NCBI GenBank assembly: GCA_028697885.1
Contig: JAQVER010000042.1
Coordinates: forward strand, 1 to 33,566
Length of the DNA: 33,566 nucleotides
Source: Desulfocapsaceae bacterium
GTDB lineage: Bacteria > Desulfobacterota > Desulfobulbia > Desulfobulbales > Desulfocapsaceae
Direction: 5' to 3'
Positions 2,565 to 30,898 of this stretch are shown here, in pieces (within the stretch, counting starts at the first letter, position 1; every line of letters begins with the position of its first letter). The notes beneath the pieces are model-generated. The model had not been told where the DNA came from. It searched no databases and saw only the letters and a program-made list of their open reading frames with translations. The translations under genes and the position numbers were made by a program.

Positions 2565-3845
2565 ATGTTCTCAAAATTGGTTGCACCACATGGCGGAAGA
2601 GGTTTGGTTTGTGCATTGCTCGAAGATGGTGAGCGCGAGGCAGAACTGAAAGTAGCTGCAGGCTTGAAGCAGGTTGAGATTTCTGCCCGTACCAAAGGCG
2701 ATCTCATCATGATGGGAATTGGTGGTTTCAGTCCTCTTGATGGCTTCATGACCAAAGCTGACTGGAAAGGCGTTTGTGAGAATTTTCAGATGGCAGATGG
2801 CACCTTCTGGCCAGTACCCATCACCCTGGATGTATCTGCCGCTGATGCCGCTGAAATTAATCCAGGAGATCATATCGCCCTGGTAAAAGATGGCGAGACT
2901 TTCGCCACCATGAAGGTTGCAGAAAAATATGAGATGACCGAGGCTGACAAGCGTTGGGAGTGTGAGAAGGTCTTTATCGGTGAGGGCGAGGAGTCTGTCG
3001 GTGGTAAATTCTGGGAGATCGCTCCTAATGATCATCCAGGTGTTATCATGGTTATGGCTCAGAAAGAGTTCAACCTTGCCGGTCCTGTAAAGGTTCTTTC
3101 TCAGGGTGAGTATCCAGTAGAGTATCCTGGCGTATTCTTGACCCCTGCCCAGACCCGTCGTATGTTTGACGAGCGCGGTTGGGCCAACGTTGCCGCCTTG
3201 CAACTGCGTAACCCAATGCATCGCTCCCATGAGTATCTGGCCAAGATCGCTGTCGAGGTATGTGACGGTGTTCTGATCCACTCCCTTATCGGTAATTTGA
3301 AAGCCGGTGATATTCCTGCCGCTACCCGTGTGAAAGCCATCGATATCCTTATCGATAAATATTTTGTAAAAGAGAACGTTATCAACGCTGGTTATCCTCT
3401 GGATATGCGTTATGCCGGTCCTCGTGAAGCACTGCTTCATGCCACCTTCCGTCAGAACTATGGCGTTAACAACATGCTGATCGGTCGCGATCATGCTGGT
3501 GTTGGTGATTTCTACGGCCTGTTCGAGGCTCAGGAGATTTTTGATCGTATTCCTAAGACCGGTGACAACAGCAAAGATCTTCAGTGTAAACCAATGAAGA
3601 TCGACTGGACCTTCTACTGTAAAGAGTGTGATGGTATGGCTTCTCTGCGTACCTGCCCACATGACAAATCTTCCCGCGTAATCCTTTCCGGTACCAAACT
3701 GCGTAAGGCCCTTTCCGCTGGCGAGGAGATTGTTGACCACTTTGGTCGTGAGGAAGTTCTTGTTCATCTCAAAAAATACTATGCAGGCCTGACCGAGAAG
3801 GTTGAGGTTAAAATGCAGGGTGCTGCCTCTGGCGCTTCCATGTAA
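2565..3845 (+). CDS. sat: Sulfate adenylyltransferase (ATP sulfurylase)
   Basis: The cytoplasmic enzyme converts sulfate and ATP to adenosine 5'-phosphosulfate and pyrophosphate. This is the activation step of dissimilatory sulfate reduction, and it runs in reverse in sulfur oxidisers and disproportionators. The 426-residue length fits the homomeric Sat family. Visible motifs are QLRNP followed by HRSHE (nucleotide binding, about residues 217-227) and GRDHAG (about 307-312). A cluster C-x2-C...C-x-H near residue 350 matches the metal-binding insert seen in sulfate reducers. The ATG follows an AGAGGGAG ribosome site at good spacing. It has its own promoter and a strong terminator. AprBA and Qmo genes, the usual functional partners, are not in this window. 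A 398-codon open frame on the opposite strand is a codon-bias shadow. Confidence 0.97.
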
Positions 3846-3877
3846 TAGTAGTCAAGACTAGTTTTTTTGAGTCTGTA

Positions 3878-3917
3878 AAAGGAGATACTGCCCATTGGGT
3901 GGTATCTCCTTTTTTTA
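3878..3917 (+). terminator. Rho-independent terminator after sat
   Basis: AAAGGAGATAC (3878-3888) pairs perfectly with GTATCTCCTTT (3902-3912), and the inner bases GCCC/GGGT can extend the stem. A T-rich run follows. It begins about 30 bp after the sat stop and ends sat transcription before aroB. Confidence 0.9.
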
Positions 3918-3945
3918 TTTATGTCCTTCTTCCCCGTAATCTATC

Positions 3946-5028
3946 ATGACACATACTCTTGATGTTGGACTTGGTGACCGAACCTATCCTATCTTTATTG
4001 AAGATGGCATTATGGCCACTGTTGGCGTGGATCTGGCAAAACGTAAGATTGCCAAACGTTTTGCGGTGATTGCCGATGACAATGTGGCCCGTCTCTATGG
4101 CAGTACTTTGATGAAATCCCTCAAAGATGCCGGGATTGCGGCAGAATTGCTCACCTTTCCGCAAGGTGAGGCCAGCAAGAATCTACAGGTCTTTGCAGAT
4201 CTTGCCAGCCGCCTGGCACAATTGGGTATTGACCGAAAGGACGGCTTGATTGCCTTGGGTGGCGGGGTCACCGGTGACCTGACCGGGTTTCTGGCATCCT
4301 CCTATCTGCGGGGCATCCCTTTTGTCCAGGTGCCGACGACTCTGCTCTCTCAGGTGGACAGCTCGGTAGGGGGCAAGACCGGGGTTGATATCCCGGAGGG
4401 GAAAAATCTGGTGGGGGCCTTTTATCAACCTAAAGCCGTTTATATAGATACAGCGGTGCTGACCACCCTTCCACTGGTGGAGTTGCTTGGTGGTCTGGCC
4501 GAGGTCATCAAATATGGGGTGATCAGGGACTTCGATTTCTTTGTCTTTCTGGAGCGTCATTTGGATCGCATCCTCTGTCTTGATCAGGAGAGTATCCAGG
4601 AGATGATCTTTACCTGTTGCCGGATTAAGGCGGAGGTGGTCGCTGAGGATGAGCGGGAGTCTGACCTGCGGCGAATCTTGAATTTCGGTCATACCATTGG
4701 GCATGCCGTGGAAGCCGCCTCTGACTTTTCCATTATTCATGGCCTGGCCGTGGCCATCGGCATGGTTGCCGCTCTGCGACTGGCGGTGGCATGCGAGCTC
4801 TGTAAAAGAAGTGATGCCGGCCGGGTTGCGGCCCTGATCAATGCCTATGGACTGCCAACGGAGATTCCTCCGGACCTTGACCGGGAGCGCATAAAAAAAT
4901 ACCTGCTGACCGACAAGAAGACGGTGGGCGGCTCAGTTTTTTATGTCCTGCCAACAGCCATCGGCAGCGTGGTAATCACCAATGAAGTGAGCAATGCGCA
5001 GGTGGATGCAGTTTTGTCCAGGAGGTGA
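3946..5028 (+). CDS. aroB: 3-dehydroquinate synthase
   Basis: This is the second enzyme of the shikimate pathway. It cyclises DAHP to 3-dehydroquinate using NAD and a divalent metal in the cytoplasm. The 360-residue length is standard. The glycine-rich NAD-binding stretch GGGVTGDLTGF (about residues 103-113) is followed by PTTLLSQVDSSVGGK. The metal-ligand region contains GHTIGHAVE and a later IHG. The ATG at 3946 gives a typical N-terminus, although no strong ribosome site precedes it. It sits directly after the sat terminator, so it needs its own promoter, which I could not identify. It converges with the minus-strand NTase gene, with only 34 bp between their stops. Confidence 0.97.
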   Translation: MTHTLDVGLGDRTYPIFIEDGIMATVGVDLAKRKIAKRFAVIADDNVARLYGSTLMKSLKDAGIAAELLTFPQGEASKNLQVFADLASRLAQLGIDRKDGLIALGGGVTGDLTGFLASSYLRGIPFVQVPTTLLSQVDSSVGGKTGVDIPEGKNLVGAFYQPKAVYIDTAVLTTLPLVELLGGLAEVIKYGVIRDFDFFVFLERHLDRILCLDQESIQEMIFTCCRIKAEVVAEDERESDLRRILNFGHTIGHAVEAASDFSIIHGLAVAIGMVAALRLAVACELCKRSDAGRVAALINAYGLPTEIPPDLDRERIKKYLLTDKKTVGGSVFYVLPTAIGSVVITNEVSNAQVDAVLSRR

Positions 5029-5062
5029 AAAAGGACAAGAAGCAGTGATTGCGGGATGACTT

Positions 5063-6106
5063 TTAATCCGGAAAAGTGGCGATAATCTGGTCAGTGACAT
5101 CTTGCATTTCTGCAAGCAGGACGTGAGCAAGTTGGGTACGTTCACGGATATCTTCAGCAGAGGTAAGCCCTATGGCCTGCAGGAGTTCGTGAGCATAGCC
5201 AAGGTATTTAGCCTGTTGCTCAGGGGGGGCATCGGCTTTGATGGCAGCGCATGAAATCATCATGAAAAGGGTGATCCAGAAGACAGATTCGCGGTGTCCG
5301 TCTTCATTGAACATTTCCAGGGTGCCCTCAACGAGGTATGGGCGGATGCAGGATTTGAGTTTATGATCGTAAGGAACAGGGCTCTTGTGGATGGTAAGGG
5401 CGTAGTCAAAGGCCTCAGTCGTTTTTGTAAGGAAATTTTCAACGTCGACAGGAATAATATTTTGTGAGCCGAGGAAATGGTGAAGTTTTTCGAAGATCTC
5501 TTTTTCCTGATCAGTTTGAATGATGTTTCGTAGTTGCAGCATGTTACGCCGATGCGTGAGGGGCGTGAGACGCACGGTAGTGAGTGTGGCGATGAGATTC
5601 ATGTTCAGCTCGCCAACAGCGAAGATGGCCTGAGTTATATCTTGAGCTCCGCGGAGAGCTTCAAACGCTTTGTGGGCATCGGCCAGCATTTCGTCACGTC
5701 TGGCTGTGACCCATTTTTTCTTCGGATATTCTTTTTTGATAATTGCGGCCAACTTGGTCAGTTTCCCCTCAGGATCCAGCAGGATACTGTGATCAGCAGC
5801 AAAAATGGATGCGTTACTGGCATCTGCGAGAAGTCTCTCGGCAGATTCGTAGCGTTGGACAGGAACAACAATGGCCTCTATGATGAGACCATCGTGGTTG
5901 CAATCGTCGATACCCTGATCCGTGATAGAATTGAGAATAATGCCAAGATCAACATCACGGTAGGCCGGAAAGGGGGCATCCAGCGGCATGTGATGCAATG
6001 AACCAACAAGATGGGCTCCGACAAAATCCTGACGATCTCCATATTTGTCCTCAATCCATTGACGTGCAATGTTGATTACCTGTGCAACGGTACGTTCAGT
6101 TGTCAT
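5063..6106 (-). CDS. Nucleotidyltransferase-fold protein B (paralogue of A)
   Basis: This 347-residue protein has what looks like a DNA polymerase beta-type nucleotidyltransferase core at its N-terminus: G35-S36, then D51-V-D53, with a possible third carboxylate at E77 in a strand-like LIIEAIV. The substrate is unknown. The C-terminal two thirds share long motifs with protein A (7649-8701), such as THRR..xxQLRNI and PYxxKLxxxIRPYLxEGT...RESxFWI, so the two are paralogues over their full length. The start is the ATG at 6106, preceded by AGGAGAA; a longer frame to 6211 has no support. The ATG overlaps the MFS stop as ATGA, which suggests translational coupling. It could adenylylate a small molecule, as aminoglycoside NTases do, but that is inference from the fold alone. 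A non-catalytic role is also possible. Confidence 0.7.
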   Translation of the reverse strand: MTTERTVAQVINIARQWIEDKYGDRQDFVGAHLVGSLHHMPLDAPFPAYRDVDLGIILNSITDQGIDDCNHDGLIIEAIVVPVQRYESAERLLADASNASIFAADHSILLDPEGKLTKLAAIIKKEYPKKKWVTARRDEMLADAHKAFEALRGAQDITQAIFAVGELNMNLIATLTTVRLTPLTHRRNMLQLRNIIQTDQEKEIFEKLHHFLGSQNIIPVDVENFLTKTTEAFDYALTIHKSPVPYDHKLKSCIRPYLVEGTLEMFNEDGHRESVFWITLFMMISCAAIKADAPPEQQAKYLGYAHELLQAIGLTSAEDIRERTQLAHVLLAEMQDVTDQIIATFPD

Positions 6107-7608
6107 GACAATTCTCCTGATAAATTTGTAATGGGTACAGTGGTCTCGCGGCGTATCGTGGCATAAAGGGTGAGTATGATGAGCCATACCGTACATGTGC
6201 CAAAAAGCCATGCAAATGCATGTGGTGGAAAGACCAGACTGGTCGTTTGTGCTGCTGCGTCTTTGATATGTTTGACACCACCGATGAGATTAAAAAACTC
6301 ACCGGCAAGAGTTGTTCCTATTGCGGAACCGGCCATGAGGTTAACGGAAAGCAGTCCGGCGATGGATGCTTGATGGTCGCGGGTTATGCTGTGGAGAGAG
6401 CTGTTGGTGTTGGCTGCGCTGAAGAAGGTACTGCCGCAACCAATGAGTACCTGAAGGACAATGATCCCGATAATGTAGCGAGTGTATATGGCTGGATTTT
6501 CTATGCTTGACGGGAGAACAATGAAGCCGGCGATTCCGAGGGTCATGAGAACAAGACCAAGGGCAATGGTTTTTTGCATACCACGACGGTCAGACATCGC
6601 GCCGGCGAAAGGACCGATGATTCCCATGCTGATGGCTCCGGCTGCGAGCACAAGGCCCGCTTTTGCGGGCGTAAGCATAAGTACCGTCTGCAGGTAGAAT
6701 GGAATGATGAAGTTGGTGATGCCCATGAGAACGCGCACCGAAAAACCGTTCATAAAGTTGTAACCCAGGGGGCTAATGCGCAGTAGTCGCAGGTGGAGAA
6801 AGCTCTCTTCGTGGCAGAATTCATGGCGCAGCCATCCGACAATCATGATCATACCGATGAGAGTGGTGGAGAGTGACAGGAATAGCGAATTATTGGACTT
6901 GCTGAGCCAGTGGTTCACGATCCAGACGAGAGCACCGAAGCCGGCAGCCATCCATAGCATGCCCTGCCAATCAAAAGCGAGGGCAATATTAGCGTCGCGT
7001 TGAATTCCTGAACGTTTGGTCATGATAAAGTTCCAGGGCAGTGCGATGAGACCGATGGGAAAGCTGATAAGGAAAATGGAACGCCAACTCCAGAGATGGA
7101 TAAGAATACCACCGGCGCCGAGTCCGCAAAGGATACCAAGGGCGAAGGTGGTTCCGGCGACCCCAAGTGCGCGTCCGTGCATAGAGCGTGGGAAGACTCG
7201 CAGTACAATCACTTTGTTCAGGGACAGAATGAGCGATGCGCCCATTGCTGCAGCAATGCGCAGGGCGATGAGGGATGGAAGATTCCAGGAGAGGCCGCAT
7301 GAACCTGAGGCAAGAGTGAAAAGGGCAACCCCGAACAGGAACATGCGTCGTATACCGAAGCGTCGACCCAACCAGGCGGATACCGGCAAGGTAAGTGCCG
7401 CTGTGGCCGTGTAGCAGATGGCCACCCATTTGACCTCGGCCAGGGTCAGATGAAGTTGTTTGCGGATTACAGGCAGGGCAAGATTGACCACGCCGCTGTC
7501 GAACGTGCACATGAAGACGCAAAGCTGCATGCCGATAAGCATGCTCCAGTAGAATGAATCGGGGAGTTTTTGCTCTAGGTTCGTCACTGAATCTTGTCCT
7601 GTTGTCAT
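6103..7608 (-). CDS. MFS multidrug-type exporter, DHA2-like
   Basis: This is an integral membrane protein of 501 residues with about 14 hydrophobic helices, the size and pattern of the 14-helix DHA2 drug:proton antiporters (EmrB/QacA relatives). The first helix region carries the D-x-G-V-V-N-x-A-L-P signature. The loop between helices 2 and 3 has the basic GRRFGIRR motif, and there is a GxLxGPxxGG-like antiporter motif C region around residues 155-170. It lies between two paralogous NTase-like genes. It starts 40 bp after the stop of A and its stop overlaps the start of B by 4 bp. That placement suggests it exports, or gives self-protection against, whatever the block makes. The substrate cannot be read from sequence. 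The ribosome site (ACAGG) is weak. Confidence 0.85.
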   Translation of the reverse strand: MTTGQDSVTNLEQKLPDSFYWSMLIGMQLCVFMCTFDSGVVNLALPVIRKQLHLTLAEVKWVAICYTATAALTLPVSAWLGRRFGIRRMFLFGVALFTLASGSCGLSWNLPSLIALRIAAAMGASLILSLNKVIVLRVFPRSMHGRALGVAGTTFALGILCGLGAGGILIHLWSWRSIFLISFPIGLIALPWNFIMTKRSGIQRDANIALAFDWQGMLWMAAGFGALVWIVNHWLSKSNNSLFLSLSTTLIGMIMIVGWLRHEFCHEESFLHLRLLRISPLGYNFMNGFSVRVLMGITNFIIPFYLQTVLMLTPAKAGLVLAAGAISMGIIGPFAGAMSDRRGMQKTIALGLVLMTLGIAGFIVLPSSIENPAIYTRYIIGIIVLQVLIGCGSTFFSAANTNSSLHSITRDHQASIAGLLSVNLMAGSAIGTTLAGEFFNLIGGVKHIKDAAAQTTSLVFPPHAFAWLFGTCTVWLIILTLYATIRRETTVPITNLSGELS

Positions 7609-7648
7609 TGGTGTTGACCTGTTACGTTAAAGACAAAGCGGAGCTGGG

Positions 7649-8701
7649 TCAGTCTGTGATGTCTGGTGATGTCATCAATGTTTTTTTGACGTAGTCACAG
7701 AGCTGAGGATAAAATACTTCGCATGCCTTCGTGCGTTCTGTTCGCCCCTGTTCGCTATCGATGCCTAAGGCATGGAGAAACTGACCCATCTTTGCCATGG
7801 CTGCCGGCTTTTCGGCTTCTGTCCCGTCGGTCTGGATAACCATGGAAGCTATAACAAAAAATCGTGCTATCCAGAAGATGGACTCCCGATAGCCGCCCTC
7901 ATGGAATATTTCTTTGGTGCCTTCAAGCAGATAGGGACGAATAAATGGTTCAAGTTTATAGGCGTAGGGAATAGGAGTTTTAAAAATTTCCACTGCCCGG
8001 TCAAATGCGCAAACAGCATCAGCAAGAAACTGTTCCGCCTGAGTCTGTGTGATGTCATGGCTACCGACGGTTCTCAAGTAGCTTTCAAACAGCTCATCTT
8101 CTCCGGCAGTGTGGAGAATGTTGCGTAACTGGATGTCACCGCGTCTGTGGGTGGGTGGAAATTGGTGAATGGCGGTCAGTGTGCCGGCGGTGAACATGGT
8201 ATAGCGCCCGAAGTTGAACATGTAATCTCCGATGCCCTTAGCCTCTTTCATCCCGTTGAGATTCTCAAAAACGTATTTCATCTCCTGTTCACAACGGGCT
8301 TGTACCCACTTACGTCGTGAGAATTCAGCCTTTACTTTTTGGTGAAGTTCATTAAGAAAGCCATAGGGGTCGAGAAGGATACTGTCAGCGGCAATGTTGT
8401 CGGCGTGCATGCAATTGGATAGAATTTTTTCTGCGTCGCTGAATAGACTGGGATTGGAGCGGATCACTTCCACGATGTAGCCATTGACGTTTTTTTCTGT
8501 GTTCTGGCGCTCTTCAACGCTGTCGGTGATGACACCGATATCAATATCGCGGTATTCGGGAAATGGAGCGTCGGGTGACATAGAGTTGATAGAGCCGATG
8601 ATGAATGCACCCTTGAATCCAGGATCATCGGTGAATGTCTCCTGAATATAGTGGCGGGCCATCTCAACGATCTGGCGAACGCTTTTTGCTTCTGATACCA
8701 T
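7649..8701 (-). CDS. Nucleotidyltransferase-fold protein A
   Basis: This 350-residue protein shows the same apparent nucleotidyltransferase core as protein B: G36-S37, D52-I-D54 and a possible third acidic residue at E78. The gap between GS and DxD (about 14 residues) is slightly longer than in many NTases. The rest is mostly helical and carries the shared THRR, QLRNI, IRPYLLEGT and RESIFWI motifs. The start at 8701 is chosen because AAAGGAGC precedes it, and it begins 2 bp after the stop of the hydrolase gene; the extra 12 residues up to 8737 lack a ribosome site. The ribosome site lies inside the hydrolase coding end, so the genes are probably coupled. I do not recognise a named family; function is inferred only at fold level. 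Confidence 0.7.
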   Translation of the reverse strand: MVSEAKSVRQIVEMARHYIQETFTDDPGFKGAFIIGSINSMSPDAPFPEYRDIDIGVITDSVEERQNTEKNVNGYIVEVIRSNPSLFSDAEKILSNCMHADNIAADSILLDPYGFLNELHQKVKAEFSRRKWVQARCEQEMKYVFENLNGMKEAKGIGDYMFNFGRYTMFTAGTLTAIHQFPPTHRRGDIQLRNILHTAGEDELFESYLRTVGSHDITQTQAEQFLADAVCAFDRAVEIFKTPIPYAYKLEPFIRPYLLEGTKEIFHEGGYRESIFWIARFFVIASMVIQTDGTEAEKPAAMAKMGQFLHALGIDSEQGRTERTKACEVFYPQLCDYVKKTLMTSPDITD

Positions 8702-8703
8702 TG

Positions 8704-9816
8704 TCAAGCTCCTTTGGTCGGTGATGTATTGTAGCATTTGTAATCATAATATGTGCTGTCTGGTTGGTCAAATGTACCTTTGAGGAGAGCAATGACCAAG
8801 TCAATGGCATAGATACGATCAAAATCAGTAAAGATGTTGTGAGCTGAGTTTTCAAAACGGAAACGCTGGAATGGTAAGCCGAGGGAGTTGATAAAAGTTT
8901 CTATGACCGGATTGTCAACGGTGATGTCGTGAGCGCCATACAGGAGGGTGAGGCGTTGACAGGTCATTTCTTCCAGTTTGATATTCATCTGGGCTTGCAG
9001 CATGGCAAAAAGCAGGCGAATTGGCGCGACGAGGTACTGGAAATAGCAATAAGTGGTCTCGGTGTCCAAGGTGTCGGCAGGGCCTGATCTGCCACTCCGT
9101 GAGGGCTTCGGAATCATGGGGATCAGCCAGGATACAAAATTAGTGGCAAATCTGTTTTTTACAATCTTGGAATAAAATCCATGTTGCTTCTGGGGAAAAA
9201 GTGCAGGTGCGGATACGACCAGTTCATGAACTGGCCGTATTTGGGCGAGATAACAAGCAAGCATACCACCCATGGAGTGGCCAATAATAGAGATTTTTTC
9301 ATAATGCCCAGCAAACAGGTCATAGATATCGACGACTTGCCGGAACCAGTCTGATTTGTGGATAGCGAGTATCTGATCGGGGTTGACTTGGCCAAAGCCG
9401 TGGATGAGTGGCGCGTGGAAATCGATATTTTCCTCACAGAGACGTTCTGCCAAGAGGTCCCACTCCATGGGTGATGTGGTGAACCCGTGCAGAAGCAGTA
9501 CGATATGATCACGTTTTTTACCGGAACTGTGGCTGATTGGTTTACACTCAAAATAGCGGTTGAATTGAGCTTCTGGTGTAAAATTCCGTGCTGTATGTGC
9601 AACGACCCAGCGTCCAAAAAAGAAAATTAGGGCTCGAATGAGATGGGCAGTAGCATATAGTAGAAGAATCGCAAGAATGATGTGTACCAAGTGGATATTT
9701 TTAAAATCTTCGATATCCACCGCGATAATTGTAATGACTGCGACGAGCAGCAGATAAAGAGGTACGATGATTGTCACTTTGTGCAGAAATTTAATTCTCC
9801 GCATGATTGGTGGCAT
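8704..9816 (-). CDS. Membrane-anchored alpha/beta hydrolase
   Basis: This 370-residue serine hydrolase resembles monoglyceride lipases and carboxylesterases. Two N-terminal hydrophobic helices (about residues 12-33 and 43-66) tether it to the membrane. The hydrolase core follows: the oxyanion-hole HGF (110-112), the nucleophile elbow GHSMGG with Ser181, the acid Asp297 in GAHD, and His326 in the NSAHN segment. The complete triad suggests an active enzyme; an ester or thioester substrate is likely but unknown. It is the first gene of the tightly spaced subset hydrolase, NTase A, MFS, NTase B. It is separated by 171 bp from the nitrilase gene upstream, where a second promoter could sit. The start at 9816 has only a weak ribosome site, and Met5 is an alternative. 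Confidence 0.85.
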   Translation of the reverse strand: MPPIMRRIKFLHKVTIIVPLYLLLVAVITIIAVDIEDFKNIHLVHIILAILLLYATAHLIRALIFFFGRWVVAHTARNFTPEAQFNRYFECKPISHSSGKKRDHIVLLLHGFTTSPMEWDLLAERLCEENIDFHAPLIHGFGQVNPDQILAIHKSDWFRQVVDIYDLFAGHYEKISIIGHSMGGMLACYLAQIRPVHELVVSAPALFPQKQHGFYSKIVKNRFATNFVSWLIPMIPKPSRSGRSGPADTLDTETTYCYFQYLVAPIRLLFAMLQAQMNIKLEEMTCQRLTLLYGAHDITVDNPVIETFINSLGLPFQRFRFENSAHNIFTDFDRIYAIDLVIALLKGTFDQPDSTYYDYKCYNTSPTKGA

Positions 9817-9987
9817 ATTTATTATATCCAGTCTTTAAAGTTGTCTGTAGCGGCTTGAGGTGTTTACTGCCAGGTTTTTCAAGATCTTTTTTTAATCATC
9901 TCTCGGATTGATTTTTGAATAACTACAGCTAAACTAGTGTCTGCAAAAATGGGCCAAGGCCAAGGTCACTTTCAGGACATTTTTTTC
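9817..9987. other. Intergenic gap within the decarboxylase-NTase block
   Basis: These 171 bp separate the nitrilase stop from the hydrolase start on the minus strand. I see no convincing terminator and no clear promoter. A GGCC direct repeat near 9955 is too short to interpret. Whether the two halves of the block share one transcript cannot be decided by eye. Confidence 0.4.
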
Positions 9988-10935
9988 TCAGTTGACTATC
10001 TTGACCAGGTCCTTGTACAATCCGGCCCGTCTGTCCACTAGGTAATTTGTATCCTCTGGATGTGTTGGGCCGTAATCCGAAGGAATACAGTCTGCCAGAA
10101 GGAGGGTGACTTCATTTTTCGCGGCCACCATGAGTTCGCCATGGGAATTTGCGACCATGCTGTTACCAAGGTACCTCCCGACAATTCTGCCGTCCAGCGT
10201 CTCATCCAGGCACCTGTTGCTGTAAGAGATAAACATATTATTTTCATATGCATGGGCGGGGATCAGGGTTTTAGAAACATCAGGATAGGGCTTTACTGTC
10301 CATTTGCCAGTGGACAGAAGGGTCGATTCATCCGCTGCCGTCGGAATGACTACGAGTTTGGCTCCCTTGAGGGCCAGTATCCGTGCAAGTTCCGAAAACT
10401 CTGCTTCATAGCAGTTCAGCACCCCTACCGGAAAACCATTGACCCTAAAAACCGTATAGGCTTCACCTTCTTCTTCAAGCTCATACCCTGCATTCCATAT
10501 TTTCTTCTCATCCGGTCCCCAGAGATGGGTTTTTCTGTAGTTTTTAAGCAGAGAACCATCTGCACCGAATACTGCAATGGAGTCGTAGTATCTGATTTCC
10601 CCACCAATTGACGCTTTTTCAGGATAAGGACAGATTATACCTATCTTATGTCTATGTGCAATTGATGCCACCTTCTCAAGATGTCGACCAGTCACCTCCA
10701 TTGCCAATTCATGTGCCGTTTCCGGGGTGATTGCATATCCACTTAAATAGAGTTCAGGAAAGCTTACCAGCTGAGCATCAAATTTTCTCGCTGCAGTGAC
10801 AACCTGCTCAAGCTGAGCAATGTTGTGGCTGATGGCCTCAGTGTTTCCGGCAGGACCTTTTCCCTGATATACGGCTAGTCGTATTCCTTTTCCTTCTTCA
10901 GGAGCAGCCTCTTTGATGTAGGCATTGATGATCAT
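9988..10935 (-). CDS. Nitrilase-superfamily C-N hydrolase (amidase)
   Basis: This 315-residue cytoplasmic enzyme hydrolyses a carbon-nitrogen bond. The Glu-Lys-Cys triad of the superfamily is complete: Glu61 in FPEL, Lys135 in YRKTHLW and Cys175 in LNCYEAEF. The CYE context points to an amidase or carbamoylase branch rather than a true nitrilase. Carbamoylputrescine amidase-like or omega-amidase-like activity is possible. It starts 27 bp after the gadB-like stop, with AAGGA ahead of the ATG, so both are almost certainly co-transcribed. With a decarboxylase next to it, the substrate may be an amide or carbamoyl form of the amine that enzyme makes; this is inference. Confidence 0.85.
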   Translation of the reverse strand: MIINAYIKEAAPEEGKGIRLAVYQGKGPAGNTEAISHNIAQLEQVVTAARKFDAQLVSFPELYLSGYAITPETAHELAMEVTGRHLEKVASIAHRHKIGIICPYPEKASIGGEIRYYDSIAVFGADGSLLKNYRKTHLWGPDEKKIWNAGYELEEEGEAYTVFRVNGFPVGVLNCYEAEFSELARILALKGAKLVVIPTAADESTLLSTGKWTVKPYPDVSKTLIPAHAYENNMFISYSNRCLDETLDGRIVGRYLGNSMVANSHGELMVAAKNEVTLLLADCIPSDYGPTHPEDTNYLVDRRAGLYKDLVKIVN

Positions 10936-10962
10936 CTGCTTTGTCCTTGGATATGAATGGAA

Positions 10963-12360
10963 TTAATGGGAGAATTGTTTGGCGTCTATTGTCTTGGTAA
11001 AACCGGGATGTTTGGAAAACCATTGTATGTGCTTTTTTATATCACCAAGCAAGGCTCCCGCCATATCGTGACTGAACCCTTCTTTGACAACAACGCGCTG
11101 GACAATAATATCCTTTCTGTTTTCCGGCATTCTGTAGGCTGGAACCAGCCAGCCGTTATATCGGAGCCTTTCGGCAAGATCAAACAAGGTATAGTTGGTC
11201 GAGGCCGCGATTTCGTCTTTTAATTTCCAGGCAAATACCGGAATGGTGTCTCCTCTGCTTATCAGTTCAAATGGTCCCATTTCCTCGATGTTTGCTGAAA
11301 GGAAGAGTGCAATGTCACGGCAGGTTTCCTGAATGGCAGTGTATCCTTCTCTGCCGAGCCGCAAAAAATTATAATACTGGGCAATCACTTGGTTTCCCGG
11401 CCTTGAAAAATTAAGTGCAAAGTTGGGGAGGTCGCCACCCAAGTAGTAACAATGAAAAATCAGTTCCTCGGGAAGTTCTTTTTTGTCACGCCAGATAGCC
11501 CACCCCACTCCCGGATAGACAAGGCCATATTTGTGACCGGACACATTGATCGATTTAACCCGTGGTACCCGGAAATCCCATTCAAGATCAGGTTGCAGAA
11601 ACGGGGCAATAAACCCGCCGCTTGCCGCATCAACATGGATAGGGATATCCAGACCGCTTTCGGCGGCAAGATGATTCAGAGCATCATCCAATTGCTTAAC
11701 CGGTTCATAGCTGCCGTCAAAGGTGCTGCCCATGATGGCTAGAACACCGATGGTGTTTTCATCACAGAGTTTGACGGCGTCTTCAGGGCGCAGAGAAAAG
11801 CTGTCTCCCTCTGCCATGACAAACCGCGGCTCTACCTCCCAATAATTACAGAATTTCTCCCAACAGACTTGCACGTTTCTTCCCATGACGAAATTGAGTT
11901 TATCAACAGGTCTGCCGGCAGCCTCCCGTCTCTTTTTCCAATTGCGTTTCAGCGCCATTCCGGCCAGCATTGCGGCTTCACTTGATCCTATGGTTGAGCA
12001 GCCAACGGCCTCCTCTCCTTCAGGCGAATTCCAAAGACGGGAAAGAATATTAACACAGCGCATTTCTATTTCAGCAGTCTGTGGATATTCATCCTTGTCA
12101 ATCATGTTCTTGTCAAAGGTGTCCATCATTAACTGACGGGCTTCGGGTTCCATCCAGGTGGTGACAAAGGTGGCAAGGTTCAGCCTTGAGTTACCGTCAA
12201 GGGCAAGTTCATCATGGATAATATTATATGCTACTGATGGTGGCAGGCCTTCACTTGCAATCTGGTATTTGGGTATCTCTCCTCTCATAATTCTCGAACC
12301 ATACGTCGGTTGGATAAGGGAGTCTTTTTTCAGATACTTTGAACTCTTTTTTGCAAACAT
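10963..12360 (-). CDS. gadB: Glutamate decarboxylase-like PLP enzyme
   Basis: This is a 465-residue group II PLP-dependent decarboxylase, nearly the same length as E. coli GadB (466). It should convert L-glutamate to GABA and CO2 in the cytoplasm. PLP-binding features are HVDAASGGF (242-250, with Asp244) and SGHKYG with the Schiff-base Lys277. The protein ends in FSH; GadB of E. coli has a C-terminal His465 that gates activity by pH, and a His falls at the same place here. The start at 12360 follows GAGAGG; the frame up to 12375 adds 5 residues without support. No GadC antiporter is visible, so a standard acid-resistance system is not evident. It opens the block with the nitrilase gene. A related acidic amino acid substrate is possible. 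Confidence 0.88.
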   Translation of the reverse strand: MFAKKSSKYLKKDSLIQPTYGSRIMRGEIPKYQIASEGLPPSVAYNIIHDELALDGNSRLNLATFVTTWMEPEARQLMMDTFDKNMIDKDEYPQTAEIEMRCVNILSRLWNSPEGEEAVGCSTIGSSEAAMLAGMALKRNWKKRREAAGRPVDKLNFVMGRNVQVCWEKFCNYWEVEPRFVMAEGDSFSLRPEDAVKLCDENTIGVLAIMGSTFDGSYEPVKQLDDALNHLAAESGLDIPIHVDAASGGFIAPFLQPDLEWDFRVPRVKSINVSGHKYGLVYPGVGWAIWRDKKELPEELIFHCYYLGGDLPNFALNFSRPGNQVIAQYYNFLRLGREGYTAIQETCRDIALFLSANIEEMGPFELISRGDTIPVFAWKLKDEIAASTNYTLFDLAERLRYNGWLVPAYRMPENRKDIIVQRVVVKEGFSHDMAGALLGDIKKHIQWFSKHPGFTKTIDAKQFSH

Positions 12361-12880: not shown

Positions 12881-13525
12881 TTAGTTGATGAGTTTATAAG
12901 CCTTTGCCGGTGTGGCGCAAACAGGACAACTGGTAAATGCGGGTGTCCCTTCAACTGTGTAGCCGCAGACAGGGCAGACACTAAATCCTGCATCTGCAAC
13001 TTTCCAATTATCTAAGTTGCTTAAAGCTTTTTTATACAGCTTTGCATGCTCCCCTTCAGCAGCTTTGGCATAGGTGAATGTTTGGATTGCGTCATTATTT
13101 TTTTCTTTTTCAGCCTGCACAAGAAACTCTGGATACATCACTGTTTCTTCATAGGTCTCACCTTTGATAGCATCTGCAAGATTTTCCTTGGTTGATTTAA
13201 TCTCAGGCAGTTTTATTTCGGCTTTTGGGATAGCTCCCATACTTTTGATCACTCTTGCATGGTTATTGAAATGAATTTCTTCGGCGGCTGAGGCTGCACG
13301 GAATAACGCAGCCACCTTAAGATAGCCTTCTTCCTCGGCCTTTTTAGAGTAAGCCAGATATTTGGCATGAGCATTACTCTCACCATTGAATGCCGCTTGC
13401 AGGTTTTCCAGAGTTTTACTGTCTTTGGCTGCACTAGCGCTCGACAACGCTGGACTCATCATTGTCATGACGAACATGATAGCAGTGAATAAAGAAAAAT
13501 GTAATTTGCTGATATTACGAACCAT
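12881..13525 (-). CDS. Exported rubrerythrin
   Basis: This 214-residue diiron protein should reduce hydrogen peroxide and so protect an anaerobe from oxygen. The ferritin-like domain (about residues 38-165) shows the expected ligand motifs GESNAH, AAEEIH, KGETYEE and AAEGEH. A C-terminal rubredoxin-like domain binds iron through CPVCG and CPVC (about 184-203). The first ~33 residues form a clear signal peptide: basic start, hydrophobic core, then SSASAA before KDSK. Export to the periplasm is uncommon, since most rubrerythrins are cytoplasmic. The ATG has a strong GGAGGAA site. It is probably monocistronic, with its own promoter and a 3' hairpin. Family assignment is firm; location is inferred from the signal sequence. 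Confidence 0.93.
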   Translation of the reverse strand: MVRNISKLHFSLFTAIMFVMTMMSPALSSASAAKDSKTLENLQAAFNGESNAHAKYLAYSKKAEEEGYLKVAALFRAASAAEEIHFNNHARVIKSMGAIPKAEIKLPEIKSTKENLADAIKGETYEETVMYPEFLVQAEKEKNNDAIQTFTYAKAAEGEHAKLYKKALSNLDNWKVADAGFSVCPVCGYTVEGTPAFTSCPVCATPAKAYKLIN

Positions 13526-13800: not shown

Positions 13801-13929
13801 TTATCTGTCGGATGAGGAAGATCGGGATATCGGCTTGATGAATTTATCGTATACCACTTTGGTGCAACCTGCTTCAATAAGTGTCGTGGGTGACAAGAAC
13901 AGCCTTAACCTGACTTTTTGCGAGACCAT
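13801..13929 (-). CDS. Possible 42-residue ORF coupled to the MBOAT gene
   Basis: The MBOAT stop TGA and an ATG overlap as TGATG at 13927-13931, opening a 42-codon frame (MVSQKVRLRL...) that ends at 13801. The predicted peptide is basic and has no signal or membrane helix. I recognise nothing in it. The same DNA carries a 28-bp near-match to the methyltransferase gene at 18586 in another frame, so this may be a relic. The remainder of 13653-13800 shows nothing I can support. Confidence 0.25.
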   Translation of the reverse strand: MVSQKVRLRLFLSPTTLIEAGCTKVVYDKFIKPISRSSSSDR

Positions 13930-15353
13930 CAAAATTGGAAATATATAAAAGGTTCTGCTGTCTCCATTGCCGCAAACAATATGACGTAGGATAGGCAGGC
14001 ATAGAAACCGCCTCTTATGATCGGTGGCCAGGTAGTGATTCCCCCATTTCTCGCAATTCGTTCATGGAGAAAATGAAATACCCAGAAAAAAGCTATCACC
14101 GCGAAACCGATGAGGACATAATTCTCATTGAATCCGGCAATTGTCGGATGAATGCAAAGGCGATCATAAAAGATAATGGCATAGTGCAGGTTCGGAGAGA
14201 AAAATAAAATGGAAAGTAAGATCCGGATAAGCATACTGAAAACCCATGAGAAAAATAACCAGGGGTTACTTGTTAAGAATACTGCCTTTCTATGTTTTCG
14301 TAATATATGTAGAGAAAAAATATGATAACTGAAAAGGCATACGCCATTTAAAAGTCCCCAAAGGACAAAGGTCCACTGGGCTCCATGCCAAAGACCGACC
14401 AATCCCATGGTAAGCAGTATCACCCTGCTGTATTGTAAAGGATTGCGGATCCGGAATCCACCCAGGGGTTTGAACAGATAGTCCAAAACCCATCTGGATA
14501 ATGTGATATGCCAGCGACGCCAGTATTCGGCAATATTGGTGGCGGTGTGAGGGAAATTGAAATTACGACTTAAACGGATACCAAAAAGAGAAGCGGTGCC
14601 CCGAGCAATTTCTGAATAGGCGGAAAAGTCAAGGTAAACAACCACAAACATGGCTACAGCAGCGAAAGCAAGAGTGCCTGTGTTCTGCGCTTGAGGATCC
14701 AAATAGGCTCCGTATGCGGCACACGTTAGTCGGTCTCCGACAACTATTTTTTTTAACAGTCCCCAACAAATGAGTCTTATCCCCGTTTCTAAGTCAGTGA
14801 ATGAAAAGTGTTGTTTTATGCGAAGTTGCGGCATGAGATCTTTTGCTCTTTCGATAGGGCCGGCAACCAGTTGTGGAAAAAAACTGACATACAGCGCTAC
14901 TAAAATAAAATCTTTTTCCGCCTTTTTTACCCCTCTGTATACATCAATAGTGTAGCTCATTGTTTGGAAAGTATAGAAAGAAATTCCTACTGGAAGAATT
15001 AAATTCAGTGGATGGGGAAGATGTTGGCCCATTGGTCCCAGAAGAGTCTTTAAGCTCTCCAGGGCAAAATCTGTGTATTTGAAGTAGGATAGTATCCCGA
15101 GATTACCAATAACGCTGATAAGGAGGCTCAGTTGTTGGTAACGCTTTGACGTTGATATGGAAATAACAAGAGCCATACCATAATCGAGAACCGTCGAAGC
15201 AAAAATGAGAAGCCCGTAAATAGGGTCCCAGTAACAGTAAAAAATATAACTTACCGTGAGTAGAAGGTACATCCTGGATCGTTGCGGAAGAAAATAATAC
15301 AACGAGAAGGAGAAAAAAAGAAGGGTTGCGAATTCAAGAGATGCGAAGGTCAT
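13929..15353 (-). CDS. MBOAT-family O-acyltransferase (AlgI/DltB-like), copy 1
   Basis: This 474-residue polytopic inner-membrane protein moves acyl groups, usually acetyl, across the membrane for transfer to a polysaccharide. AlgI-type landmarks are YFKYTDF, EYWRRWHITLSRW and the catalytic-His segment GLWHGAQWTF, followed by several helices. It is the partner of the SGNH gene upstream. Its ATG overlaps that gene's stop by 4 bp (15350-15353), so the two should be made together. The target glycan is unknown. It is more similar in layout than in sequence to the second MBOAT at 21832. Confidence 0.9.
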   Translation of the reverse strand: MTFASLEFATLLFFSFSLYYFLPQRSRMYLLLTVSYIFYCYWDPIYGLLIFASTVLDYGMALVISISTSKRYQQLSLLISVIGNLGILSYFKYTDFALESLKTLLGPMGQHLPHPLNLILPVGISFYTFQTMSYTIDVYRGVKKAEKDFILVALYVSFFPQLVAGPIERAKDLMPQLRIKQHFSFTDLETGIRLICWGLLKKIVVGDRLTCAAYGAYLDPQAQNTGTLAFAAVAMFVVVYLDFSAYSEIARGTASLFGIRLSRNFNFPHTATNIAEYWRRWHITLSRWVLDYLFKPLGGFRIRNPLQYSRVILLTMGLVGLWHGAQWTFVLWGLLNGVCLFSYHIFSLHILRKHRKAVFLTSNPWLFFSWVFSMLIRILLSILFFSPNLHYAIIFYDRLCIHPTIAGFNENYVLIGFAVIAFFWVFHFLHERIARNGGITTWPPIIRGGFYACLSYVILFAAMETAEPFIYFQF

Positions 15354-16477
15354 TTGGCCAGAAGATCTACGAACAGGTGGGCCATGGTGGCGTGTCCTGC
15401 TGCATTGAAATGGGTGAGGGTCAGATACTGATTATCGGGTACCTTATTACTTAAGTCGACAACTTTAAAGCCTTTGGCGGCAGATCTTATTGTAAATTCG
15501 TTCAGGAGCAGACTGTTCTTTTTTTGGATTGAAGAATGAAGGGGCATGAATACAAAATATTTTTCACCTTTCATGTCTTGAGTTGTATCCAGAAAATAAC
15601 TCAGTAACTCAAGGGAAATGGAACTAATGTTAATGGGCCGTGTTGTTGTTTGTGCCTTTGTGCTTGCTGCTCGCAGATGGTCCACATACCATTGCCTTGG
15701 GACTGCTGTTTGAAAAAACCATTTTTCTGATTTTCCGGATTTGTCAAATGGTCTGAGCTCCTCTATCTGCATCAGTCGGGAGGTGAAAATATCCCGGTAT
15801 CTCCAGGGGGCAAAAATATGAGCAAAAAATATGTCGAGGTAATCAATGGGACGAATAAAATGTGCCAGGAAGGCAGAGGGGATAGACTTGCGGATATTGG
15901 AAAACCAGAGCAGGAAGTGACAGTCAGAGATGAAATTTTTGCGAAGGCCTTTCTTGGGGTCAAGTTCCATTCGATTGTTAGAAAAATCTGCGGGGCTGTC
16001 AACAAAAATGAGAATATCCGGGGCGAGACGCTTGGCGGCGGCAGCTAAAATGGTAAAATCCGGCACTTGGCCTCCAGGTATTGACCAGTTGAGAACTCGC
16101 ACATTTTCTTTCTGTCGTAGGATAAGATATTTTTCCAGAAGGGCAGGGTAGGTTTCCCGGTCAGATAATTCACGTCCATAGCCCTGGGAATTACTGATTA
16201 TTACTATAAGCTTGTCAGGCCGTTTAATCTTATCTGCTGAAAGCACATGCTTGACCCAGCCGCGTCGAAAAAAGATATTTCGTTTTTCTGGATTATGCTG
16301 ATCTTCCCATTTTCCGGTAAAGACCCCAAAAATTACGGTGAGCATGAGAAAAAAGAATATACCCCATATGATAGAACGGGCCGAATGCAATTCGGCTTTT
16401 GCCGTATGCTTTTTACGCAATGAAGCAAGAAGCATAAGCAGCTTCTTTGCGTATGTTTTACAGGTTGCAAGCAGCAT
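15350..16477 (-). CDS. SGNH/DltD-like membrane-anchored acyltransferase partner
   Basis: This 375-residue protein has one N-terminal membrane helix (about 34-54) and a periplasmic SGNH-type domain. Possible catalytic features are the SNSQG strand end (Ser95 or Ser97), a GGQVPD turn and a C-terminal THFNAAGH segment that would supply the His. It most likely accepts the acyl group delivered by the MBOAT protein and passes it to a surface glycan. The 4-bp overlap with the MBOAT gene supports a pair. The upstream ribosome site is weak. The Ser and His roles are inferred from position, since overall similarity to DltD or AlgJ is faint by eye. Confidence 0.7.
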   Translation of the reverse strand: MLLATCKTYAKKLLMLLASLRKKHTAKAELHSARSIIWGIFFFLMLTVIFGVFTGKWEDQHNPEKRNIFFRRGWVKHVLSADKIKRPDKLIVIISNSQGYGRELSDRETYPALLEKYLILRQKENVRVLNWSIPGGQVPDFTILAAAAKRLAPDILIFVDSPADFSNNRMELDPKKGLRKNFISDCHFLLWFSNIRKSIPSAFLAHFIRPIDYLDIFFAHIFAPWRYRDIFTSRLMQIEELRPFDKSGKSEKWFFQTAVPRQWYVDHLRAASTKAQTTTRPINISSISLELLSYFLDTTQDMKGEKYFVFMPLHSSIQKKNSLLLNEFTIRSAAKGFKVVDLSNKVPDNQYLTLTHFNAAGHATMAHLFVDLLAK

Positions 16478-28376: not shown

Positions 28377-29687
28377 TTATGCTTTAACGACATTCTCTGC
28401 CGGATCCTGGTAAACTCCGCGAGTGTCTACGATGAGCCGAGCGTTTTTCTGAAGCATATCGTAATCGAACAAATCATGGTTAGTTACCAGCAGAATTAGA
28501 TCATAGCCAGCTACGACCTCGGGGCTGAGGGTGACGCTGGAAAGATCAAAGTGATACTGCCGCATCTTTGGAAATTGTGGGAAATATGGATCTGAATAGT
28601 CAATCTCAGCGCCTTTTTCCTGCAACATTTCCATAAGTTCCACCGCTGGGGATTCCCGCATATCAGCCACATTCTTTTTATAAGCGATACCGAGAACCAG
28701 GACGCGGCTACCTTTGAGGGCCAACCCCTGTCCGTTTAATGCCTCAATGACCTTGCCGATAACCCAGCGAGGCATATTGGTATTCACTTCTCCGGCCAGT
28801 TCAATAAATCGGGTTGTGACCCCGTATTCCCGAGCCTTCCATGTAAGATAAAAGGGGTCAATAGGGATGCAATGCCCCCCCAAGCCAGGGCCTGGATAGT
28901 AAGGCGTAAAACCGAATGGCTTGGTAGCCGCCGAGCGGATGACTTCATAAATGTCAATTCCCATTCGATCGCAGACGATCTTCATCTCGTTAACCAAACC
29001 AATATTGACAGCACGATGGATATTCTCCAGCAACTTGCTCATCTCGGCAACCCGGGTGGAACTGACTGGAACTATAACATCAATGGCTGACTTGTAGAGG
29101 GCGATACCGGCTTGGAGACAGTCGGTTGTGTGTCCGCCAATGACTTTCGGAATGGTCTGCGTCGTAAAGTTGGGATTGCCTGGATCTTCCCGCTCCGGTG
29201 AATAAACCAGGAAAATATCTTGCCCCACTTTTAGGCCGTTTGCTTCAATGCGCGGTAATAATTCTTCTTCGGTCGTTCCTGGATATGTTGTGCTTTCCAG
29301 GGAAACAATCTGCCTGTTATGCAAATAGGGTAACAGTGAATTTACTGTCCGGATTATAAAGGATATGTCCGGCTCCCGGTGGTTGTTGAGGGGGGTTGGC
29401 ACACAGATGATTAGAGCGTCTGCTTCCTGCGAACGACTGAAATCATTTGTCGCTTCAAAACCACGTTGGCCGGCCGCTCTGATGTTTTCTGAAGGAATAT
29501 GCTCAATGTAGGTTTCACCCGCATTCAGTTTATCTACTTTGTTCTGATCAATATCTATTCCCACAACTCGAAAGCCGGCAGAGCTGAAACGGAGCATGAG
29601 AGGAAGGCCAACGTAGCCTAAACCGATAATGCCGATAGTTGCCTGCCGGGACTTAAAACGGTCAATTAAGAAAGAAAGATTGTTCAT
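28377..29687 (-). CDS. wbpA: UDP-sugar 6-dehydrogenase (WbpA/WecC-like)
   Basis: This 436-residue NAD-dependent enzyme oxidises a UDP-hexose(-amine) to its uronic acid. By look it belongs to the UDP-GlcNAc or UDP-ManNAc branch (WbpA, WecC, TviB). The Rossmann motif GLGYVG is at 22-27. The catalytic Cys273 sits in [13 protein letters not shown], and [10 protein letters not shown] marks the C-terminal binding domain. AAGGAG precedes the ATG. It should supply an acidic sugar for surface polysaccharide. It is divergent from the GT2 gene across a 326-bp region. UDP-glucose dehydrogenase is less likely, given the PGPGLGGHC context. Confidence 0.92.
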
Positions 29688-30013
29688 TCTAAAAGGCTCC
29701 TTGCCATCTCAGATGCGCATGCTGGTAGGGGGAATTGCTATTGTTACATGGAGTACAGCTAGCATGCCTTGGTGAAGCTGTCAAGGTCAAGCTCTTCGTG
29801 TAATTCGCCTCAGTCTGCCTGCAGCAGCTTGTGATAAGTCCTATTTCCCCCCAAGCTTGTAAAGGATTGTAATTTCCTGTACACTTTATTTTTAGAAGGT
29901 CACTTCTGTCATGTTGTTTATCATGGTAGAACCAGACGATCTATACAACATTGGTGGCTTTTTTGTCTGCTGTAATTCAGAAACGCGGCCAACCCTGATG
30001 CGGCTTATATAAA
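29688..30013. other. Divergent promoter region between wbpA-like and GT2 genes
   Basis: These 326 bp must hold promoters for both directions. For the GT2 gene, TTGTAA (29857-29862) and TACACT (29880-29885) are 17 bp apart, a modest match. For the minus strand, TTGACA (29784-29779) has a weak partner near 29761-29756. GCATGCT (29717-29723) and AGCATGC (29761-29767) form an inverted repeat close to that site, possibly an operator. No gene is seen. Confidence 0.35.
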
Positions 30014-30898
30014 ATGAGGAATACAGATTTGGATCAGAAAAACAGATGTGAGGTAACCATTCTTTTGCCCGCCTATAACGAAGAAGGTGTTATTGGTACT
30101 ACCATCCAAACGCTCAGAGAGCTGTATCCTGATTTCGAAATTCTGGTGGTGGATGACGGCTCAACCGATAACACTATGAAAGAGGCGATGGATGCCGGGG
30201 CCAATGTCTGGCCGCACCCCTATAATATCGGCAACGGGGCAGCCATCAAGTCCGGTCTGCGTTGTGCCCAGGGGGAGTGGGTGGTGATGATGGATGCAGA
30301 CGGCCAGCATCAACCAGAGGATGTAGCCAGGCTCCTTGAACATAAGAATAGATATGATATGGTTGTAGGCGCAAGAGGTAGAGAGTCGGAAACAAGTCTG
30401 CATAGAGATTTTGCCAACTGCATTTATAACTGGTTTGCCAGTTATGTGACCATGTTCAAGGTAGAAGATTTGACTTCCGGCTTCCGATTGGTACGGGCAG
30501 AGGTTGCGAGAAAATTTATTTATCTGTTGCCAAATACTTTTTCCTATCCTTCGACGATTACCATGGCCTATTTAAGAAGCGGGAGGACTGTGAAATATGT
30601 TCAGATTGCCACTAAGAAAAGAGTTGGGAAAAGTAAAATTCGACTGTTACAGGATGGCGCGAAATTTTTATTGATCATTACTAAGGTGGCAACACTTTTT
30701 GCGCCGATGCGGGTTTTTTTGCCTTTGAGCGGTCTCCTTATGCTGAGTGGTCTATTTTGGTATATCTATACTTATATAACAACGCAACGATTCACCAATA
30801 TGTCGGCCCTGCTTTTTTCGACCTCAGTGATTGTTTTTATGATGGGACTGGTTTCTGAACAGATTTCTCAAATGAGATATGATCGAGTTCAGGAGTAA
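30014..30898 (+). CDS. Glycosyltransferase family 2 (polyprenyl-phosphate type)
   Basis: This 294-residue protein has an N-terminal GT-A domain with the PAYNEE start, VVDDGSTD and the metal-binding DAD (94-96) before GQHQPED. Two C-terminal hydrophobic helices (about 237-257 and 266-284) follow. This layout matches dolichol- or undecaprenyl-phosphate sugar transferases (DPM1/ArnC-like), which load a sugar on a lipid carrier at the inner membrane face. Its 3' end overlaps the flippase-like gene on the other strand by 10 bp (30889-30898). The neighbourhood suggests lipid-linked glycan assembly. The sugar donor is not readable from sequence. Confidence 0.9.
   Translation: MRNTDLDQKNRCEVTILLPAYNEEGVIGTTIQTLRELYPDFEILVVDDGSTDNTMKEAMDAGANVWPHPYNIGNGAAIKSGLRCAQGEWVVMMDADGQHQPEDVARLLEHKNRYDMVVGARGRESETSLHRDFANCIYNWFASYVTMFKVEDLTSGFRLVRAEVARKFIYLLPNTFSYPSTITMAYLRSGRTVKYVQIATKKRVGKSKIRLLQDGAKFLLIITKVATLFAPMRVFLPLSGLLMLSGLFWYIYTYITTQRFTNMSALLFSTSVIVFMMGLVSEQISQMRYDRVQE

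Follow-up and report, generated by a model that had tools for sequence, protein, structure and literature searches.

A stretch of 33,566 nucleotides from a Desulfocapsaceae bacterium (NCBI GenBank assembly GCA_028697885.1, contig JAQVER010000042.1), hereafter the window, carries a row of six minus-strand genes that form two units. Unit 1 (5063-9816) encodes a membrane-tethered serine hydrolase (HYD), two paralogous nucleotidyltransferases (NTase A and NTase B, or NTA and NTB) and, between these two, an exporter of the major facilitator superfamily (MFS); unit 2 (9988-12360) encodes a glutamate decarboxylase (GAD) and a C-N hydrolase. The four genes of unit 1 are under purifying selection and recur in the same order in other genomes. 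They are best explained, tentatively and with somewhat less than even confidence, as a modify-and-expel module acting on a small molecule at the cytoplasmic membrane's inner face. The six genes are:

10963-12360, minus strand, unit 2: glutamate decarboxylase (GAD); TIGR01788, 673.6 bits (cutoff 380.4)
9988-10935, minus strand, unit 2: C-N hydrolase of the nitrilase superfamily; PF00795, 147.9 bits (cutoff 23.2)
8704-9816, minus strand, unit 1: membrane-tethered serine hydrolase (HYD) of the Est30 / monoacylglycerol-lipase kind; Hydrolase_4 PF12146, 54.5 bits (above the cutoff of 27)
7649-8701, minus strand, unit 1: NTase A, a full-length KNTase-fold protein, called from its motif and predicted fold
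6103-7608, minus strand, unit 1: DHA2-type (EmrB-like) MFS exporter; MFS_1 PF07690, 176 bits (cutoff 33.4)
5063-6106, minus strand, unit 1: NTase B, a paralogue of NTase A with 37% identity to it and the motif residues kept

Gene order, distribution and selection

All six open reading frames are present in the order described in an initial annotation of this DNA, which had also reported their close packing on one strand. Measured from conserved starts, GAD is separated by 27 bp from the C-N hydrolase gene, which lies 171 bp from HYD; HYD and NTase A are 2 bp apart, NTase A and MFS 40 bp, and the genes of MFS and NTase B share 4 bp (ATGA). The gaps of 171, 2 and 40 bp and the overlap are those given earlier, and the family labels then proposed (decarboxylase, nitrilase, hydrolase, MFS) are borne out by the Pfam and NCBIfam scores. 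Direct reading of the sequence places a GGAG before the start at both the HYD/NTase A and the MFS/NTase B junctions, inside the end of the preceding gene. No conserved promoter block ahead of HYD was found among the four upstream regions compared, and promoter and terminator scans were at about shuffle level (13 vs 9.8 +/- 2.9 and 7 vs 6.9 +/- 2.6, respectively).

At E 1e-3, NTase matches are present in four of 97 relatives (the window's genome, G000, together with G048, G056 and G089). Three of 395 genomes taken from across the phylum match, one of them weakly (G162), as do three of the 195 genomes of the Thiorhodococcus order (T. drewsii, T. minor and G630). G162 was rejected as a member, its match (E 2.9e-4) having 21% identity over about 143 residues and lying in a region with no tblastn match to the window genes at E 1e-4. 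A pattern scan of a species-level genome collection gave seven NTase loci (L016-L022), a lower bound, since such a scan can miss diverged members. These loci belong to metagenome-assembled genomes labelled Desulfocapsa sp. (L016, taken as G048, and L018) or 'Proteobacteria bacterium' (L017 and L019, the latter taken as G056, of the window's family), to Desulfogranum mediterraneum (L020, taken as G089), to Thiorhodococcus drewsii (L021) and to Thiorhodococcus minor (L022).

In the eight genomes with a clear NTase relative, the window included, an MFS gene is always adjacent (8/8), and HYD is adjacent in seven, the contig of the eighth (L019) beginning inside NTase A. Two arrangements are found. 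The A/B form, HYD-NTA-MFS-NTB, is present in five genomes, namely the window, L016, L017, L018 and, in its visible part, L019; outside the window the order is thus seen in L016, L017 and L018 and is intact in two of these three. The single-NTase form, MFS-HYD-NT, is that of L020, L021 and L022. The comparison of gene order in relatives that had been proposed with the initial annotation agrees with its picture of four tightly spaced genes, this being the set that is conserved across genomes. For all four genes of unit 1, dN/dS between the window and L016 or L017 is 0.06-0.13, with dS near saturation (0.94-2.34); these values, together with the recurring gene order, argue that unit 1 is not a chance arrangement.

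The third match in the Thiorhodococcus order, G630, is a more distant NTase (32-33% identity) that stands alone, with no MFS or HYD match in the 20 kb read; it is possibly a remnant of the module. This NTase stands upstream of an LD-transpeptidase and a class-V aminotransferase gene (L032, 9472-13516), and these two genes also come after the module in the two Thiorhodococcus genomes. A viral origin was considered and rejected, none of the 22 pattern matches in viral contigs being a relative. Plasmid linkage was rejected as well: among 72,556 plasmid records NTase A matches one (25.7% identity), a Nonomuraea record that is catalogued as a plasmid but has the size of a chromosome, and no match was obtained there with HYD or the HYD of the MATE-exporter version described below (E 1e-15), nor with the NTase of that version (E 0.01). 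In a distant actinobacterial NTase (Nonomuraea, L013, 7989-8996, about 24-25.7% identity), GS, DxD, E78 and R-E-x-x-F-W are all retained.

The encoded proteins

NTases A and B share 37% identity over 343 columns, and no third copy was found in the window's genome. A Pfam search matched neither to a family, and the NTase label is therefore based on the motif and the predicted fold. The AlphaFold model of NTase A (pLDDT 90.7) consists of an N-terminal nucleotidyltransferase domain and a C-terminal helical domain, and is a full-length structural match to KNTase-like enzymes, with ANT(4'), LinB, ANT(6) and AadA among the top full-length matches. The initial annotation had described two full-length paralogous NTase-fold proteins and had proposed their comparison with the KNTase, LinB and ANT folds; the identity between the two, the shared motif and the model of A, which lands on that fold, all agree with the description. 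A sequence search of solved structures with both NTases gave no match, and none was obtained with NTase A as a profile.

Residues G36, S37, D52, D54 and E78 are kept in NTase A and the same motif residues in NTase B; S37, D52, D54 and E78 are invariant in 10 of 10 NTase rows, Nonomuraea included. Their equivalence to residues of KNTase, LinB and AadA is set by motif order and strand position rather than by superposed coordinates. In those enzymes, catalytic roles are ascribed to the GS-motif serine, a pair of metal carboxylates and a third glutamate (LinB Glu89 / AadA Glu87 / KNTase Glu76) in PMC4631478 and PMC6361787. When alignment columns were compared for the catalytic Glu145 of ANT(4'), position 138 was acidic in eight of the ten rows. 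The window NTases thus resemble the KNTase/ANT(4')/LinB antibiotic NTases in having an NTase domain with a C-terminal helical bundle and in keeping GS, DxD and the third glutamate; they differ from them in being about 100 residues longer, in their 12% identity, in scoring below all curated family cutoffs, in their linkage to a hydrolase and an exporter and in their duplication as A and B. In a tree of 14 rows, in which the placement of long rows is unsure, the A clade (100/100) and the B clade (100/100) group together (96/98), so that the duplication probably arose in the window's lineage.

HYD has two N-terminal transmembrane segments by hydropathy (residues 14-32 and 46-64). Compared as a profile with solved structures, it finds 6nkg best (E 2.7e-15), followed by the Est30-type structures 1tqh, 1r1d and 8hea (E 8e-14 to 4e-13). 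It has the serine hydrolase core of Est30 carboxylesterase and of bacterial monoacylglycerol lipase, from which it differs by the extra N-terminal pair of hydrophobic segments. The columns of S181, D297 and H326 are invariant in seven of seven rows, or nine of nine once the relatives from the MATE-exporter version are added, and these residues are the presumed catalytic triad, by analogy with the fold family; the AlphaFold model of HYD is poor (pLDDT 63.7). In all nine readable loci (the window, L016, L017, L018, L020, L021, L022, L051 and L052), HYD has an exporter gene beside it, and likewise an NTase-type gene.

For the MFS proteins of the window and of the three single-NTase loci, the best NCBIfam model is TIGR00711, of the DHA2 (EmrB-like) exporters; all four remain below its cutoff (164-202 vs 230.2 bits, the window protein having 179.7).

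Sensor sets and a MATE-exporter version

Each of the three single-NTase loci has, next to the module and on the same strand, a SpoIIE/HATPase/STAS partner-switching set:

T. drewsii: STAS 2454-2786, HATPase 2798-3241, Cache-HAMP-SpoIIE 3242-5179, then the MFS gene at 5373
T. minor: NTase ending at 9047, STAS beginning near 9155, HATPase beginning near 9520, SpoIIE 9935-11902
D. mediterraneum: STAS, followed by a Cache-HAMP-SpoIIE-HATPase fusion and, after 72 bp, the MFS gene

The domain calls are above Pfam cutoffs in full for T. drewsii and D. mediterraneum and for the SpoIIE of T. minor, whose STAS and HATPase were called by tblastn. The two Thiorhodococcus loci are relatives, yet they have the set on different flanks of the module. 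Since SpoIIE matches are few per genome (3 in D. mediterraneum, 6 in T. drewsii and 7 in T. minor), placement of one within 5 kb by chance is rare, at about 0.6%, 1.1% and 1.3%, respectively (the last computed with 8 matches). The sets are built as in RsbU-RsbW-RsbV partner switching, with a Cache-HAMP-SpoIIE phosphatase, an HATPase_c_2 protein and a STAS protein beside the module; the window locus differs in having no such set. None was found in the sequence surrounding the A/B module in the window, L016, L017 and L018 (L018 being without downstream sequence), and the L019 sequence has nothing upstream of the module. G056 alone among the five A/B genomes carries SpoIIE on the same contig as the module, about 10 kb away, and the window's genome has a single SpoIIE match, a low one (29.3 bits, cutoff 25) that lies away from the module locus.

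With the HYD profile at E 1e-20, there are three matching genomes among 369 that sample the Thiorhodococcus class: T. drewsii and two other gammaproteobacteria, G777 and G992. In G777, HYD overlaps by 8 bp a MATE exporter gene (PF01554, 98.3 bits; TIGR00797, 133.3 bits, cutoff 147.4), which in turn overlaps by 14 bp the gene of a 378-residue NTase-like protein carrying GGS...SDLDIFVV, an NTase signature. The same order is found in G992, where the MATE exporter and the NTase are each in two frames. At the G777 locus no match to the window MFS or NTases was found at E 1e-5. All three genomes sampled from the order of G777 and G992 match the HYD profile; in the third (G893) the HYD relative gives way to 316 bases that run to the end of the contig, have no resemblance to the other two loci and, inspected by eye, look like the beginning of a transposase gene. 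The exporter is read here as replaced, MATE for MFS, within one architecture, and the NTase as probably replaced with it.

The modify-and-expel reading and its rivals

In the modify-and-expel module, NTases A and B would transfer a nucleotidyl group, probably AMP, onto a substrate hydroxyl group, in the manner of ANT(4'), LinB and AadA; HYD would cleave an ester bond, or one like it, in that substrate or in a related one, and the exporter would expel the substrate or its product. ANT(4') is a dimer, and its reaction joins substrates bound on different subunits, so the A/B duplication may have yielded a heterodimer or, alternatively, two specificities. The most likely use would be to protect the cell from a toxic natural product or some other xenobiotic, as in antibiotic self-protection. 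In the single-NTase relatives, expression or activity would probably be gated by the Cache-HAMP-SpoIIE sensor of the partner-switching set, which has no counterpart at the window locus. The recurrence of the module in unrelated sulfur bacteria suggests a shared chemical defence or export job.

Several observations weigh against this reading. The unit is rare (four of 97 relatives) and not always whole: in L018 NTase A is broken and the contig ends inside NTase B, in L019 the MFS is shortened and NTase B internally deleted, and in G893 (L058, 1-667) the HYD relative is cut off after residue 117. The NTase A model fits ANT(4') with a large rmsd (6.1 A) at 12% identity, and an equivalent of ANT(4') Glu145 is not established, position 166 being R in A and E in B. 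The NTases fall below every curated antibiotic-NTase cutoff, the best model being ANT_4p_I (E 0.024, in one of ten rows), followed by AadS (E 0.075, one of ten rows). Finally, the NTase-like protein of G777 reaches 15.9 bits to PF01909, below the cutoff of 21, and its profile comparison with the window NTase family is not significant, though the two motifs line up.

The initial annotation had treated the six genes as one block that could make and export, or modify and expel, an amine-derived compound. One pathway for such a compound would accord with the common strand and the gap of only 171 bp, with the presence of GAD in all four module-bearing genomes of the 97 relatives, against seven of 97 overall at E 1e-30 (hypergeometric 1e-5, without kinship correction, with G037, G048 and G056 sharing one genus), as well as in T. 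drewsii, and with the GAD gene that lies 7.6 kb from the module in D. mediterraneum, where no C-N hydrolase was found at E 1e-30. Linkage elsewhere speaks against it. C-N hydrolase matches at E 1e-30 occur in four of the 97 relatives (G000, G037, G048 and G056), and each adjoins GAD on the same strand. The pair lies on a different contig from the module in G048, G056 and T. drewsii, it is present in G037 without the module, and among the genomes read it adjoins unit 1 in the window only; the genomes of T. minor, L017 and L018 have the module, and GAD was not found in them at E 1e-10 (the C-N hydrolase was not searched there). Judged from this distribution, GAD and the C-N hydrolase are a separate conserved pair that lies beside unit 1 here by happenstance, and a single six-gene pathway, rejected as the best reading, is very unlikely. 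Since pair and module are unlinked in other genomes, the amine-derived substrate is left unsupported, and of the earlier proposal it is the modify-and-expel alternative, for the four-gene unit, that stands as the best.

Biosynthesis and export, in which HYD and the NTases would make a nucleotidylated or hydrolysed small molecule (a signal or natural product) for secretion by the MFS or MATE protein, with production under partner-switching control, is unlikely but to be reckoned with: an exporter and enzymes do share one tight gene row, sensor-phosphatase sets stand beside all three single-NTase modules, and a MATE exporter takes the place of MFS in G777 and G992, but no scaffold-building gene is common to the loci, as judged from the window neighbours compared with relatives and from the open reading frames read rather than from full annotation. 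Remodelling of the envelope or of lipids is a less probable reading, in which HYD would deacylate a membrane lipid or glycolipid, the NTases would decorate the head group and the MFS or MATE protein would move the lipid across the membrane. The two transmembrane segments of HYD, the monoacylglycerol lipases among its solved relatives and the LD-transpeptidase gene after both Thiorhodococcus modules are in its favour, but the best scores of the exporters are to efflux models, and the LD-transpeptidase/aminotransferase pair is also present in G630, without MFS or HYD in the 20 kb read, and therefore probably belongs to the chromosomal neighbourhood. A role in conflict or defence, in which the target of the NTases would be nucleic acid, tRNA or else a partner protein (compare HalB, MntA and MenT), with HYD or the transporter as effector, is highly unlikely. 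The NTase A model matches ANT(4') better and over more residues than it does HalB (232 vs 182), PADLOC gives no match up to E 0.1 for HYD, NTA, MFS or NTB, the viral-contig matches include no relative, and the unit-1 genes have been under long-term purifying selection. PADLOC likewise gave none for GAD up to E 0.1, and for the C-N hydrolase only one to a nitrilase domain (E 0.0077).

A broader form of the modify-and-expel reading, which is doubtful, would see a three-part class made of a tethered HYD, a multidrug-type exporter and a KNTase-like NTase, whose architecture stays while the exporter (MFS or MATE) and the NTase vary by lineage. Such modules would be gated by partner switching in the single-NTase form, would work through an obligate A/B heterodimer in the window's lineage, and would act on an antibiotic-like compound of sulfur-cycling communities by detoxifying and expelling it. 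The parts are each of a known kind; in the open-licence literature searched (titles and abstract openings) neither their combination nor the GAD-C-N hydrolase pair was found described. If the modify-and-expel reading is true, sulfur bacteria would possess a testable resistance or export module with an NTase family outside all curated models, one could ask which compound it faces, and loci with and without the sensing arm could be compared.

As regards unit 2, the C-N hydrolase is nearest to N-carbamoylputrescine amidase and aliphatic amidase; its score to TIGR03381 (AguB), 102.2 bits, is far under the cutoff of 410.25, and it is assignable as CN_hydrolase only. The pair is found in T. drewsii too (L053, 789-3102; 58% and 68% identity) and hence crosses phyla. 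A rubrerythrin gene lies near GAD both in the window (12881-13525) and in D. mediterraneum (L011, 3744-4346), with 37% identity between the two. Elsewhere in the window, two overlapping minus-strand genes (13929-16477) resemble, by eye, an MBOAT O-acyltransferase and its partner, and a UDP-glucose/GDP-mannose dehydrogenase, a family-2 glycosyltransferase and an LPG_synthase_TM-type membrane protein are encoded in a row at 28377-31800.

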